DNA from: a bacterium
GTDB lineage: Bacteria; CAIJMQ01; JAADFP01
Reading direction: 5' to 3'
Length of the DNA stretch: 22,274 bases
Assembly: GCA_027021085.1 (NCBI GenBank)
Contig: JALUVB010000162.1
Span: 1-22,274, forward strand
Both the position numbers and the translations under genes were made by a program. Of this stretch, positions 5,356 through 22,200 are shown in pieces (position 1 is the stretch's first letter; each line of letters begins with the position of its first letter). The notes under the pieces were generated by a model. The model searched no databases and was not told the origin of the DNA. It saw only the letters and a program-made list of their open reading frames with translations.

Positions 5356-5370
5356 GCCTAATAGGCATTA
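5352..5370. promoter_or_regulatory. Inverted repeat over the -10 box and start codon (candidate operator/RNA hairpin)
   Basis: TAATGCCTAATAGGCATTA has 7-bp arms TAATGCC/GGCATTA. The left arm plus the following bases is the exact reverse complement of the terminal-repeat core TTAGGCATTA (5275-5284), and the right arm matches it at 9 of 10 positions. It covers most of the TATAAT and touches the ATG. It could be a transposase-binding operator. In RNA arriving from outside the element it could fold and hide the start codon. Confidence 0.6.
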
Positions 5371-6794
5371 TGAGCTTTATAAGATACAAGAAAATTGGCA
5401 ATAAGGAGTATGCATATGAGGTGAATGCCTACTGGGACTCATCCAGTAAAAAACCGAGGCAGAGAACCCGATATCTTGGTGTTGTTATTGACAGGGAGAA
5501 GAAGATATTTAAAAGAGCGAGAGAGAGGCCACAGGAGAGATTGATTCTTGATTTTGGAGACGGATACTTGATTTATGAATTTCTGAAGCAGATAGGGATG
5601 GATGAACTGTTGAGGGAGATATTTGGTGGCAGTGCTGAGGAGTTAGAGGTGATGATAGCCTACAGGCTCACTGAAGGCTCAGCGATGAGGCATCTCCCTC
5701 TGTGGTATGAAGGTAATGTATTGAGTCTTTTATCAAGGTCAAAGGGATTAAGTTCTCAGAGGATGAGCAGGTTACTGAAGGTTTTTGGCAGGGAGGGTAA
5801 GCAGAGGGAATTTTTCAGGAAATACATCCAGATGTACTTCAAAGACACAGAAGGGATAGTGATAGATACAACTGCACTGCCCAATGAGATAGGCCTGGGG
5901 TTAACGAGGTGGGGTTATAGTAATTTAAGCATAGATATGCAGATAAGGCTGATATGCGTAGTAGATAAAGAGAGTGGTATGCCTGTTTATTATCGTTATG
6001 TAGGGGGTAGTATTGTTGATGTCAGTGTATTTGGTATGACAATAGAAGAATTGAGACGTACAGGATTAAGAAGTAGTTTTGTGCTACTTGATGCTGGATT
6101 TTTTAGTGAGACTAATCTAAGACAACTAAACAGTGAAGAGATAGAGTATCTTATCAGGATACCCTCAGGTAGGAGGGTATACAAGGAGTTAATAAGCCAG
6201 TACAGCACTCAGACTCAGATTGAGAAAGCAAGCAATGCAGTTCGGTACGGTCAAAGGGTTTTGTTTATACAGCAGGCTGAGGTTGAATTATATGGTAAGA
6301 GGGGATATGCCCACATAGTGCTTGACCCTGAACGTAGGGGTAGAGAGATAAGAAAGTTAATGATTGAGAGTATTGAGGATAGAAGGGAAAGAGACGAAGC
6401 TCTGGAGTATGAACTTTCAAAGAAGGGAATAATGATACTTTTTTCCTCTTTCCCGATAGAAAAGGATAAGGTGGTACCGATGTATTATATGAGGGTGAAG
6501 ATTGAGCAGGTGTTCGGATTTTCAAAGGATGATTTAAACCTTCTGCCTTTAAGAGTTCATAAAGAAGAGACACTGAGAGGATATCTATTTCTGATGTTTT
6601 TAACCCTCGTTGTTTTTATGTTTTTAAGAAATGAACTGAAAAATAAATATATAGTGGAAGAGGCATTAATGAGTATGAGGAATTTGAAATGTAAGGTCTA
6701 TGATAACGAAATCTTAATTCCTGAACAAACTAAACAGCAAAAAGAAATTTTATCTCTGCTGAATATCATAGTGCCTAAAAAATGCGGAATTTAG
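5370..6794 (+). CDS. IS4-superfamily (IS1634-like) DDE transposase
   Basis: This 474-residue transposase cuts and rejoins the element's ends through a DDE active site. The acidic triad is Asp166 (VIDTTAL), Asp241 (LLDAGFF) and Glu379. Glu379 sits in a perfect IS4 signature Y372-x2-R375-x3-E379-x6-K386 (within YYMRVKIEQVFGFSKD). The N-terminus (FIRYKKIGNKEYAYEV ... RQRTRYLGVV) is typical of IS1634-type enzymes and supports the start at 5370 despite the lack of a ribosome-binding site. A hydrophobic stretch near 418-434 follows the catalytic Glu, as in relatives. There are no frameshifts or internal stops. The gene ends inside the right terminal repeat. Confidence 0.93.
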   Translation: MSFIRYKKIGNKEYAYEVNAYWDSSSKKPRQRTRYLGVVIDREKKIFKRARERPQERLILDFGDGYLIYEFLKQIGMDELLREIFGGSAEELEVMIAYRLTEGSAMRHLPLWYEGNVLSLLSRSKGLSSQRMSRLLKVFGREGKQREFFRKYIQMYFKDTEGIVIDTTALPNEIGLGLTRWGYSNLSIDMQIRLICVVDKESGMPVYYRYVGGSIVDVSVFGMTIEELRRTGLRSSFVLLDAGFFSETNLRQLNSEEIEYLIRIPSGRRVYKELISQYSTQTQIEKASNAVRYGQRVLFIQQAEVELYGKRGYAHIVLDPERRGREIRKLMIESIEDRRERDEALEYELSKKGIMILFSSFPIEKDKVVPMYYMRVKIEQVFGFSKDDLNLLPLRVHKEETLRGYLFLMFLTLVVFMFLRNELKNKYIVEEALMSMRNLKCKVYDNEILIPEQTKQQKEILSLLNIIVPKKCGI

Positions 6795-8710: not shown

Positions 8711-8860
8711 ATGGCAGTTTAGTCATTAGTCTTAACTTAGTGAGCTATGGGTCATGCCGGCCTCCGCACAAATTCCAATGCACTCGCTTACCCGCCTCTC
8801 CCCGTCTATAGTCTAAAGTCTATCCCGACTTCTGTCGGGAGCCTTCCTCTCACTACTTTC
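8711..8860. other. Repeat-bearing gap between the kinase-like gene and ddl
   Basis: This gap holds heptamer arrays and a palindrome (see separate entries). About 90 bases next to ddl, containing degenerate AGTCATTAGTC-type repeats, show no recognisable promoter. It probably carries the ddl promoter, but I cannot locate it. Confidence 0.45.
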
Positions 8861-8884
8861 TCACTGCTTACTGTTCACTATTTT
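8803..8884 (-). repeat. Heptamer repeat module behind the kinase-like gene
   Basis: Read on the minus strand, AGTRAAY-type 7-mers (about 8884 down to 8850) come first, then the palindrome at 8840-8823, then GACTTTA/GACTATA-type 7-mers (about 8823 down to 8803). These are the same unit classes as in the array after 21499. The first units lie inside the last codons of the kinase-like gene and supply its TGA. Confidence 0.7.
8823..8840. repeat. 7-bp-stem/4-nt-loop palindrome
   Basis: TCCCGAC, loop TTCT, GTCGGGA. It has the same design as the palindromes in the right-end repeat block. It sits between two heptamer arrays and could act as a bidirectional RNA hairpin, but it lacks a T run. Confidence 0.6.
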
Positions 8885-10027
8885 CCTGTCTTTCGCCAGG
8901 TATTCCTGCACCAGCTTTTTCATCTGGGTGCCTTCCACATCGATTATTTTCATCTCCCGGCGGGCAGATTTTACCGAATCAGAGGCATGCACCCCGTTGC
9001 GCATTATGTCATGCCCGTATTCTCTCCTTATGGTTCCCGGCTCTGCTTCCAGGGGGTCAGTTGCTCCTACTTTTCTACGAATGCGGGACACGGCAAAGGG
9101 GCCTTGATAGACCAGGGCAAGAGATTGATGCTCTCTTCCACCGGGTCGGTCCTTGAGGACGGGGTCATCTACCTGGTAGGGGTTATGCCCGGTCATGAAT
9201 TCAATCAGCCTGGCAAATTCTTCTTTCCCCTTTTCTTCCCCCAGTTTTTCCTGCAGTTTTCGCTCTATCGGGGCATAGAATTTCATTGCCTGGTTGATGG
9301 ACATGTTTACTGCCTTGGCGCCTATGAGTTTTAATCCGGGGCCGGAGAGGGCGTTGATTATTTCCCCCACTCTGCGGGACTTGGTATAGATGTTGTCCGG
9401 TTTTATCAGTACCATGGTAGTCTCAATATTGTTGAGTAAGTCTTCCTTGGATACGCAGAGTCCTTCCCGGTACCTCAAGGCTTCCAGCTCGTGGTGATCC
9501 CAGCGTTCGATAAGTTTTTCCCATTTCACAATATTTTTCAGCAGTCCGCCGTCTTTTTCGCTGTATTCAGCCCACAGGGTAATTACCTCCTTTGCCACGC
9601 GTGGCTTGGGAATAATAATTACCGCGGGGTCAATGAATCTTACTATGTTTCCATCCTCGTCTTCTTCAAACTCTGCGAAAGAGTTTCTTATCGTGCCGTC
9701 AATTCGATGAGATATTGGCCCTACCACTCCCCTGATTTGGGAAATGGCCTCTTCCCCCCGCAGAAGTAGAAGCATCATTCTTTTTTTTATCGGGCCTTTG
9801 TTTTTTGCTATGTATTCCCGGTAGAGGTATTCTCTGAAAGAGTCCTGTATTATCAGTTCTATGTATTTCCTGATTAGCCCCTGGCTGGGGGCAAACATCC
9901 TTACCTCTATGAGTTCCAGGGGTTTAACTCCGCCAGAAAATATCTCTTTTATTATAGAACCGGTAAGAGATTTCTCCAGGGATTTCTCGGTAATGAGGAC
10001 TAAAGCAAGTTCTTCTTTTATGCCCAT
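8861..10027 (-). CDS. Tandem nucleoside diphosphate kinase-domain protein
   Basis: Nucleoside diphosphate kinase moves the gamma-phosphate between nucleotides via a phosphohistidine. The 388 residues contain two copies of the fold. The C-terminal copy (about 203-362) is well conserved: TMVLIKPD with Lys209, RKVGATDP, EPGTIRREY and the active-site motif NGVHASDS with His347. It carries an extra ~40-residue charged insert (about 255-300) compared with the usual ~140-residue enzyme. The N-terminal copy (about 6-140) keeps the opening strand ALVLITEKS and a GPISHRIDGTIRNSF stretch that resembles the VGAT...GTIR region, but it has no catalytic His. It therefore looks like a degenerate, perhaps regulatory or dimerising, copy. 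The gene overlaps the preceding membrane-protein gene by 10 bases. Its last codons, IVNSKQ-stop, are made of repeat DNA. Confidence 0.85.
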   Translation of the reverse strand: MGIKEELALVLITEKSLEKSLTGSIIKEIFSGGVKPLELIEVRMFAPSQGLIRKYIELIIQDSFREYLYREYIAKNKGPIKKRMMLLLLRGEEAISQIRGVVGPISHRIDGTIRNSFAEFEEDEDGNIVRFIDPAVIIIPKPRVAKEVITLWAEYSEKDGGLLKNIVKWEKLIERWDHHELEALRYREGLCVSKEDLLNNIETTMVLIKPDNIYTKSRRVGEIINALSGPGLKLIGAKAVNMSINQAMKFYAPIERKLQEKLGEEKGKEEFARLIEFMTGHNPYQVDDPVLKDRPGGREHQSLALVYQGPFAVSRIRRKVGATDPLEAEPGTIRREYGHDIMRNGVHASDSVKSARREMKIIDVEGTQMKKLVQEYLAKDRKIVNSKQ

Positions 10028-20392: not shown

Positions 20393-20827
20393 TTGGAGAA
20401 TAAAAATAGCGGGAAAGACAGGAATTTGAAAAGGATGGAATACTGTTTTGCCTGCGGAAAGAAAAATCCGCATGGGCTGAAACTATCCTTTACTTTTGAT
20501 GGTAAATTTGCAGAATCCTTTTTTGTTCCCCATGCTTACCACCAGGGATGGAGCAAAATTCTGCACGGAGGATTGATAGCTACTCTCCTGGACGAAGCCA
20601 TGGTTTATGCAGCCTACTTCTCCGGCATAAAAGCAGTTACCGGAGAGCTCAAAGTTAGGTTCCACCGGGAGGCAGCAGTGGGAGGAAAGCTAAAGATCAG
20701 GGGCTGGATAGAAGATTCCCGCCTTGGACTCTTCTTCACCCGGGCAAATATCTTTAATGAAGAGGGTGAATTGGTGGCAGAAGGCGAAGGGAAGTTAGTG
20801 GGGGAAAAGGGGTCTTGTATTAAATGA
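20393..20827 (+). CDS. PaaI-type hotdog thioesterase
   Basis: This is an acyl-CoA thioesterase-like protein of about 144 residues. It has the 4HBT motif HGGLIATLLDEAMVYAA and the N-terminal CFACGKKNPHGLKL block found in many PaaI-type enzymes (CxxCG..NP.GL.L). The frame is open from a TTG at 20357, but the best ribosome-binding site, AAGGGG (20379-20384), points to the TTG at 20393. The GTG at 20384 and the ATG at 20435 are alternatives. The exact substrate is unknown. Its stop overlaps the response-regulator start (ATGA), so the two are translationally coupled. That pairing is unusual, since a sensor kinase is more common. Confidence 0.8.
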   Translation: MENKNSGKDRNLKRMEYCFACGKKNPHGLKLSFTFDGKFAESFFVPHAYHQGWSKILHGGLIATLLDEAMVYAAYFSGIKAVTGELKVRFHREAAVGGKLKIRGWIEDSRLGLFFTRANIFNEEGELVAEGEGKLVGEKGSCIK

Positions 20828-21513
20828 ATGAATTGATATTTGTGGTGGATGATGAACCGGATATCCTGGAACTTGTGTCTCTCCATCTTAAAAAATCCGG
20901 TTTTAAAGTTGCAGAGTTCCAGGATGGCAAAGCATTTCTTTCTGCTATTGAACACCGGGTCCCGGACCTGGTAATCCTGGATTTGATGCTGCCTGATGCA
21001 GATGGCTTGGAAGTCTGCAAGTACCTAAGAAAAAGAGAAGAGTTTTCCTACCTGCCCATTATCATGCTCACGGCTAAGGTAGAAGAAACAGATAAGGTGC
21101 TGGGACTGGAGCTGGGAGCAGATGATTATGTGACCAAGCCTTTTTCTCCCAGGGAATTAATAGCACGGGTAAAAGCAGTGCTGAGAAGAAGGGAAAGAAA
21201 GGGAAATGGTGCACAGGTTAAGATAGGTGGTATTCTTACCCTGGATATGCAAAAGTACCAGGTTGGCGTGGAAGGGAGAAGGGTGGAACTGACATCCACG
21301 GAATTCAGGATTTTGAAACTTCTCTCTTCCAAGAAAGGATGGGTTTTCACCCGGGACCAGATACTGGATTATCTCTGGGGAGATGAGAAGGTCGTTTTAG
21401 ATAGGACCATAGACGTGCATATAAAAAATATAAGAGAAAAATTGGGCAAAGCAGGGAAATTCATCAAAAATATCCGGGGCGTGGGATATAAGTTGGAAGA
21501 CTATAGACCGTAG
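20824..21513 (+). CDS. OmpR/PhoB-family response regulator
   Basis: This 229-residue two-component regulator has an N-terminal receiver with Asp9/Asp10, phospho-acceptor Asp53 (VILDLMLP), Thr83 and Lys105 (TKPF). A C-terminal winged-helix DNA-binding domain (about 130-226) follows, with LTSTEFRILKLL, RDQILDYLWG, RTIDVHIKNIREKLG and IRGVGYKLE. All phosphorylation residues are intact. It overlaps the thioesterase gene by 4 bases. No histidine kinase follows within the remaining 760 bases, so its partner must lie elsewhere. The final residues DYRP and the stop TAG are encoded by the first units of the repeat array, which appears to have moved into the gene's end without harming the domain. Confidence 0.93.
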   Translation: MNELIFVVDDEPDILELVSLHLKKSGFKVAEFQDGKAFLSAIEHRVPDLVILDLMLPDADGLEVCKYLRKREEFSYLPIIMLTAKVEETDKVLGLELGADDYVTKPFSPRELIARVKAVLRRRERKGNGAQVKIGGILTLDMQKYQVGVEGRRVELTSTEFRILKLLSSKKGWVFTRDQILDYLWGDEKVVLDRTIDVHIKNIREKLGKAGKFIKNIRGVGYKLEDYRP

Positions 21514-21611
21514 ACTTTAGACTATAGACTGGGGAAATAGTAAACAGTAAATAGTGAACAGTAAGTAGTGAGAAAGTAGTGAGTAGCGAGTAGATAGTAG
21601 TGAGGGGATGG

Positions 21612-21631
21612 ATTCCCGCTTTCGCGGGAAT
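21612..21631. repeat. Palindrome, 8-bp stem and 4-nt loop
   Basis: ATTCCCGC, loop TTTC, GCGGGAAT, followed by GACA. It belongs to the widespread 'ATTCCCGC...GCGGGAATGAC' type of dispersed palindrome whose translation gives the spurious peptide VIPAKAGI. Confidence 0.7.
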
Positions 21632-21674
21632 GACAAAAGAGAAGCAGGAAAGATAAGCAACCAGCCCGCGTGTC

Positions 21675-21694
21675 ATGCCTGCGAAAGCAGGCAT
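21675..21694. repeat. Palindrome, 8-bp stem and 4-nt loop
   Basis: ATGCCTGC, loop GAAA, GCAGGCAT, preceded by GTC and followed by CCAGGA. It is the opposite orientation of the palindrome type at 21612 and 21861. Together with 21612-21631 it brackets about 40 bases. Confidence 0.65.
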
Positions 21695-21860
21695 CCAGGA
21701 TTTTAGACCATAGACTTTAGACTGTAGACTGGAAGTATAGTGAGCAGTAGTTAGTAGTGAGGAAAGATAATAAACAGTGAACAGTGAATAGTGACTTGGT
21801 ATCATAGTTTCCTGGTAATCCTGGTTTCCTGGTTTCTTAGTTTCTTGGAGAAGAGTATAG

Positions 21861-21880
21861 ATTCCTGCTTTTGCAGGAAT
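21861..21880. repeat. Palindrome, 8-bp stem and 4-nt loop
   Basis: ATTCCTGC, loop TTTT, GCAGGAAT, followed by GACA. Compared with 21612-21631 it carries matched changes in both arms (C to T at one position paired with G to A), so the pairing is preserved although the sequence has diverged. Confidence 0.7.
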
Positions 21881-22077
21881 GACAAGAGAGAAGCAAAACG
21901 GGGGAAAAACCAGCCCACCTGAGACTATAGACTGGGAGAATAGTGAATGGCAACGAGTAACGAGGAAAGATAGTAAATAGTGAACAGTAAATAGTGAGTT
22001 GGTCCCCCGTATCATGTGTCTTTCCCGTCTAATGTCTATAGTCTGATGTCTATAGTCTAACATGGAGGCATAGGCGC

Positions 22078-22093
22078 CCCGGCATGCGCCGGG
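22078..22093. repeat. Palindrome, 6-bp GC stem and 4-nt loop
   Basis: CCCGGC, loop ATGC, GCCGGG. It lies between the inverted class-A array and the class-C array. It is shorter than the others but has the same loop length. Confidence 0.5.
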
Positions 22094-22200
22094 ACAGGGA
22101 ACTAACAACTCATAACTCACAACTCTTGGACTTTAGACTGGGGAAGCAGTAAACAGTAAATAGTGAACAGTGACTTGGTATCCTGGTTTCTTGGTTTAGG

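Follow-up and report, generated by a model that had tools for sequence, protein, structure and literature searches.

A composite block of heptamer arrays, REP-type palindromes and a conserved core as one member of a dispersed, polar family of intergenic repeats at bacterial gene 3' ends

The window considered here, i.e., the whole stretch of 22,274 nucleotides that was analysed, is the entire contig C162 of a draft genome (G000; 1.93 Mb, 307 contigs). Its 3' part harbors a gene for an OmpR/PhoB-type response regulator, the end of which runs into a block of short tandem arrays, palindromes and a conserved core, and a second, smaller block is found at the 3' end of a gene with an NDK domain (Table 1). 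A DDE transposase gene (DDE_Tnp_1, 5370-6794) is also present in the window.

Table 1. Features of the repeat blocks and of the adjoining genes in the window
Feature	Position	Strand	Evidence
OmpR/PhoB-type response regulator gene	20824-21513	+	Pfam Response_reg 1.2e-32, Trans_reg_C 4.6e-25
Module A1, GACYNTA heptamer array, ~4.7 units	21498-21531	+	TRF period 7; lag-7 run 21498-21599
Module B1, AGTRAAY heptamer array	21535-21573	+	TRF, lag-7 run
Module C1, GTAGYGA heptamer array	21565-21604	+	TRF, lag-7 run
Palindrome P (GGATTCCCGCTTTCGCGGGAATGAC), holds ATTCCC-N8-GGGAAT, the dRS3 form	21610-21634	+	dRS3 pattern (PMC3898611)
Palindrome Q (GTCATGCCTGCGAAAGCAGGCATCC), P family, inverse orientation, 37 bp after P	21672-21696	+	pattern match
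Module A2	21702-21730	+	TRF, lag-7 run
Modules B2/C2 (C unit 21754-21761, B units 21773-21794)	21739-21794	+	TRF, lag-7 run
Module D1, octamer array TTTCYTGG / TATCCTGG	21797-21848	+	TRF period 8; lag-8 run 21819-21845
Palindrome P, degenerate	21859-21883	+	pattern match
Short A3, then B3 units (21942-21999)	21926-21999	+	lag run
Core E/M: conserved, reverse A units, terminal hairpin CCCCGGCATGCGCCGGG	22002-22095	+	16 copies in 275 kb of G000
Module H, AACTCAYA heptamer array	22100-22125	+	TRF, lag run
A4 (single unit), then B4 array	22132-22172	+	TRF, lag run
Module D2, octamer array (lag-8 run 22176-22196)	22174-22197	+	TRF, lag run
Second, smaller block (B, palindrome, A) at 3' end of NDK-domain gene 8861-10027	8804-8883	-	repeat + Pfam + junction comparison

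The original prediction had described the block as built from 7-nt and 8-nt units. Over 21499-22200, identity at lag 7 amounts to 0.473, while 300 dinucleotide shuffles give 0.262 ± 0.015 (z 13.9), the excess recurring at lag 14 (z 7.2) and lag 21 (z 3.7), and the period of 7 is thus upheld by these shuffles as well as by a tandem-repeat search (TRF). The period of 8 is real but local; it is exhibited by the two short octamer arrays, while lag 8 over the whole block does not rise above dinucleotide shuffles (z 1.0). The heptamer units named beforehand are found in the block as GACYNTA, AGTRAAY/AGTRAGY and AACTCAYA, to which a fourth type, GTAGYGA, and the 94-nt core have to be added. The succession A-B, in part followed by D, recurs three to four times in the block, where about four had been counted.

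The block belongs to a family of composite intergenic repeats that is scattered over the genome. It has 109 matches in G000, and the 275 kb made up of the window and of 20 stretches around such matches, a sample that is thus match-selected, contains 58 lag-7 arrays against 0 in a shuffle, other periods being sparse except for multiples of 7. Neither of the outcomes that had been named as speaking against a period of 7 (no excess over shuffled sequence, units absent elsewhere in the genome) occurred. In the nearest relative, a genome from the same genus (G001), for which contigs were picked irrespective of matches, 30 lag-7 arrays are found in 461 kb. Palindrome Q has 69 exact-pattern copies in G000.

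The modules of this family are arranged in an order and a direction of their own. When modules are tokenised, the neighbor order in G000 is A before B (27:1), B before D (15:0), Q before A (13:0) and B before core E (11:0), and that in G001 is A-C-B-D (A before C 28:3, C before B 22:0, B before D 24:0); permuting the tokens within loci leaves far fewer such neighbors. The fixed order that had been claimed from a single block is therefore real in this genome, and both species have A before B and B before D; the order is not absolute, however, since module C precedes B in one of them and usually follows it in the other. The B units counted share a single direction at every one of 40 loci. G000 and G001 are both draft genomes in many fragments, assemblies break at repeats, many blocks lie at contig ends (that of the window among them) and single block structures may hold assembly errors, but blocks that lie inside contigs show the ordered pattern too, as does the relative with its separate genome. 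A role of replication direction in setting block orientation is unsupported, several contigs having blocks both ways. Additional short-word modules absent from the window can be found in G001 (L205, L194), namely GATACAG, AGGCACAGAGGCACAAAG, AAATCACAAATCCC, GGGTTTAGGATTTAG and the octamer AAGTGAGT.

Conserved junctions between modules indicate how this order came about. The distance between the last A and the first B unit amounts to exactly 14 nt at 24 of the 40 junctions, with an 8-nt linker of consensus TAGACTATAGACTGGGAGAATAGTGAAC, the A arrays display a position-specific pattern of units, counted from the linker, that is common to loci, and matches between loci of G000 extend over 100-200 bp at 80-95% identity. 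Junctions conserved in both sequence and spacing mean that the blocks derive from an ancestral composite by copying and are not independent arrays. Judging from these comparisons, module order appears to be inherited from that composite rather than generated by step size. Regarding the step itself, 16 copies of core E were found in the 275 kb of G000, and the B array adjoining it, measured between the fixed ends GAAGATAG and GTTGG, is 23, 30, 37 or 44 nt long in ten of them; among the remaining B arrays, two read 43 nt because their prefix differs by one base, and another is composite. Such length steps of 7 beside a core in which spacing is near-constant indicate that the arrays change by whole 7-nt units, which would fit slippage and unequal exchange alike. 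Of the single copying or slippage mechanism with a set step that had been proposed, the 7-nt steps in copy number can thus be retained, whereas module order is not a product of step size.

It can be asked whether the arrays were instead born independently in place by heptamer-biased slippage, the similarity between loci being convergence. Unselected DNA from 33 unrelated genomes (469 kb) also has lag 7 as its most frequent array period (15 arrays vs 6 for lag 8), most of these arrays being in a few genomes that use words of their own, and permuted units are about as frequent in viral contigs as B itself. That lag 7 is commonest in unrelated genomes too implies that the heptamer bias is general; it is also already known, since heptanucleotide repeats have been reported as the most frequent long-unit class in bacteria and polymerase step size has been proposed as the cause (PMC4679880, PMC4692102). 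The linker, the 14-nt spacing, the unit-by-unit A pattern shared by loci and the long matches between them all stand against independent birth, which is disfavored and which we regard as very improbable.

With regard to location, 39 of the 105 blocks of G000 and G001 have a co-oriented gene 3' end inside the block start or at most 50 bp from it, compared with 8 for anti-oriented ends (p 5.5e-6), and the stop codon falls within an array at 27 of the 64 listed junctions. The last codons of the response regulator gene and its stop TAG (21511-21513) are supplied by the first A array, the protein ending in DYRP, and the B array at the NDK-domain gene encodes the C-terminus IVNSKQ together with the stop codon. 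Two genes of G001 (L054:5063, L203) close with a string (GGGATATAAGTTAGACTATAGACCTTAG) almost identical to that of the window's response regulator gene, as if gene ends had been copied along with the A array. In forward orientation, three successive units of an A, B, or C array suffice to place a stop codon in all frames; in reversed B there are none. Since genes were called as greedy ORFs and stops in forward arrays help to create ORF ends there, part of the gene-end bias is expected from ORF calling. The bias nonetheless persists for genes that stop before the array (22 vs 3, p 1.6e-4); taken by themselves, blocks between tandem genes show a weak direction bias (8:6 in G000 and 17:7 in G001). 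In a set of 118 stretches that were picked for the B pattern and span many phyla, arrays between tandem genes run along the gene in 33 cases and against it in 17 (p 0.03), and 33 of 55 co-oriented stops fall between -12 and +14 bp relative to the array. Polarity may result from translational selection, i.e., selection against reverse copies that extend proteins, and arrays arising near stop codons could contribute to the gene-end bias.

Polarity and stop-codon anchoring, and the occurrence of TRA/TAG in every forward B and A unit, would also suit a functional 3' untranslated element, with fail-safe stops in all frames and/or signals for RNA processing, stability or termination maintained by selection. 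Modules are nevertheless exchanged wholesale between species at the same gene, and the blocks extend far past any useful stop. A structured RNA is not supported for core E, whose fold is no better than chance when compared with shuffles (z -1.27); an Rfam search gave no family above gathering score, only a sub-threshold mir-676 match located outside the block. A functional 3' element is accordingly judged improbable. No sign of a specific cellular function was found for the block. Among the options listed by the original prediction, a selfish or mosaic repeat fits best, and for a target of DNA-binding proteins or a boundary element no evidence was found.

The palindromes belong to a known type. 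P and Q follow ATTCCC-N8-GGGAAT, the dRS3 pattern (PMC3898611), either as such or as a compensated variant, and dRS3 corresponds to CGTC-1 in the REP scheme of PMC3733652, according to which CGTC REPs occur without associated transposase genes. The copies in the window read TGTC/GACA at their ends and not CGTC; some copies in G001 and in other genomes do end in CGTC. In G001, an ORF of 96 aa with a GIY-YIG domain is located between Q and P (L232:1083-1612, on contig C133). With this protein as query against 290 genomes, inverted repeats across the GIY-YIG ORF exceeding the 99% shuffle level were found at 25 of 42 loci compared with 1 of 37 control positions, and 19 of these 25 loci carry GTCAT in the arm. 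When only genomes that had not been chosen via the palindrome are counted, the palindrome pattern is present in 8 of 9 with a close homologue of the nuclease and in 0 of 19 without one (p 2.9e-6). Solo GIY-YIG ORFs of about 96 aa flanked by palindromes can be found in many distant lineages (L322, L321, L315, L320, L238, L237, L313 and others). A truncated GIY-YIG start (MGKYYVYF...) lies beside a Q palindrome in G001 (L055:3886-3960, contig C10), apparently the remnant of an element.

It can tentatively be hypothesized, in a proposal that may well prove wrong, that the palindromes of the block are TGTCAT/CGTC REPs, a large group described as having no mobility enzyme of its own, and that the solo endonuclease of about 96 aa encoded between inverted palindromes is their candidate mobility enzyme. 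If so, cutting by the GIY-YIG nuclease at palindromes would seed recombination between blocks and thereby drive the mosaic and its concerted evolution. No earlier report of an association between GIY-YIG genes and such palindromes was found in the part of the literature that was searched. The enzyme of CGTC-type REPs is an open question in the literature, on which the palindromes point to a candidate, and this lead is possibly of greater interest than the mosaic. The nuclease as cause of the heptamers is unsupported, one heptamer-rich genome (G022) being devoid of it.

The blocks could even be non-autonomous mobile elements spread by transposition, in which Q...P would be the ends for a nuclease or transposase and the heptamers passenger DNA. 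While Q before A (13:0) and C before P (3:0) in G000, the solo GIY-YIG gene flanked by the same palindromes in the sister genome and elsewhere, and the distribution of palindromes among genomes with and without the nuclease agree with this, many A-B blocks are palindrome-free (e.g., L027:17919 and L030:6509), blocks often start at a gene end rather than at a palindrome, and the nuclease-free G022 is rich in heptamers all the same. Inverted Q/P pairs frame only some blocks, and no clean empty site at which a target duplication could be seen came out of the comparison between the sister species. Transposition of entire blocks is in our opinion unlikely.

G000 and G001 are syntenic, with most matches at about 83-88% identity, which makes turnover visible at orthologous sites, although in draft assemblies and at few sites. 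An A array is kept in both species at five orthologous gene ends (response regulator, L032, L039, L043 and L046:7567). The module following A is B at all five in G000; in G001 it is C at three, an octamer at one and B at one. The NDK-domain gene has a different gene end in the relative, followed by A. A block is missing or minimal in G001 at L046:6745, probably also at L036:9264, and a synteny breakpoint coincides with one block (L033:6026-6108). On the sequences compared, this species-wide replacement of modules after A would point to concerted evolution through exchange between dispersed copies.

The reading that we prefer, and hold to be probable, is that of a composite intergenic mosaic repeat, dispersed and polar, which has the block as one of its copies and which spread and turned over as follows. 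An ancestral string, consisting of an A array, the 8-nt linker, a B array, C, D or core E, and palindromes, would have been copied to many gene 3' ends, presumably by gene conversion. Within each copy, the heptamer arrays would lengthen or shorten by full 7-nt units, be it by replication slippage, which we favor as the source of the steps, or by unequal exchange. Copies within one genome would overwrite one another by recombination between homologous modules, which would keep order and direction intact and let the vocabulary drift in each species. The best chance of survival would fall to copies that directly follow a stop codon and run in gene direction, owing to the stops that forward A, B, and C arrays offer in all frames and that reversed B arrays lack. 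Heptamer arrays, usually viewed as isolated slippage products, are here part of a directional, ordered composite at stop codons that is apparently homogenized genome-wide. Such a system lends itself to measuring the 7-nt step, in paralogues that differ by one unit, and concerted evolution, in sister species with different grammars.

Heptamer arrays are known in bacteria, and the polar, ordered mosaic of heptamer arrays, REP-type palindromes and a core at gene 3' ends is a variant on them. The tandem 7-nt excess over chance and the many dispersed intergenic loci place the arrays with the long heptanucleotide SSRs, such as the cyanobacterial STRR, the TAACTGA repeats of Beggiatoaceae and the GGGNATC repeats of Xanthomonas and Nostoc, which are likewise short, mostly intergenic 7-nt arrays at many loci; the comparison with STRR made by the original prediction is fair at this class level. 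Unlike in these SSRs, several heptamer types are combined here with an octamer and a core, in fixed order and direction, with conserved junctions and a start at the gene 3' end, whereas the TAACTGA arrays of the Orange Guaymas genome lie mostly before start codons. NIME of Neisseria are intergenic, rearrangement-linked arrays of 200-2700 bp made of dRS3 (20-bp ATTCCC-N8-GGGAAT) and other units (PMC3898611), and the dRS3 repeat inside the first P is likewise accompanied by other repeat units. These units are heptamer arrays, those of NIME being RS repeats of 30-160 bp; heptamer and octamer arrays with a grammar lie between the palindromes here, many blocks are palindrome-free and the genome is unrelated. 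CGTC-tagged REPs (PMC3733652) share the palindrome type and the dimeric arrangement; they differ from the TGTC copies of the window in their tag, and a neighboring solo GIY-YIG gene is not mentioned in the passages of that study that were consulted. BIME and REPtrons (REP with RAYT) likewise alternate inverted palindromes in mosaics and flank a small mobility-type gene (PMC2817692, PMC3733652), but a GIY-YIG nuclease here replaces the HUH tyrosine transposase and heptamer arrays act as filler.

Concerning the words themselves, AGTRAAY arrays are found in at least 118 stretches of the species collection, in many phyla. A special, universal status of this word is not supported, permuted units occurring in 18, 74, and 1 stretches of viral contigs against 49 for B. 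Neither is a single ACTNNNN superfamily, as ACT is present in 51 of 58 units of G000 but in 2 of 15 arrays from unselected DNA of other lineages, no more than chance. Dense short-word arrays with vocabularies of their own can be found elsewhere, e.g., AAGGCGG heptamers in G022 (L262) and ACTTTCYA octamers in G024 (L280). In several unrelated bacteria (L079, L070, L086, L089, L099), an inverted heptamer array follows the B array at about 100 bp or less, and the pair could form a hairpin.
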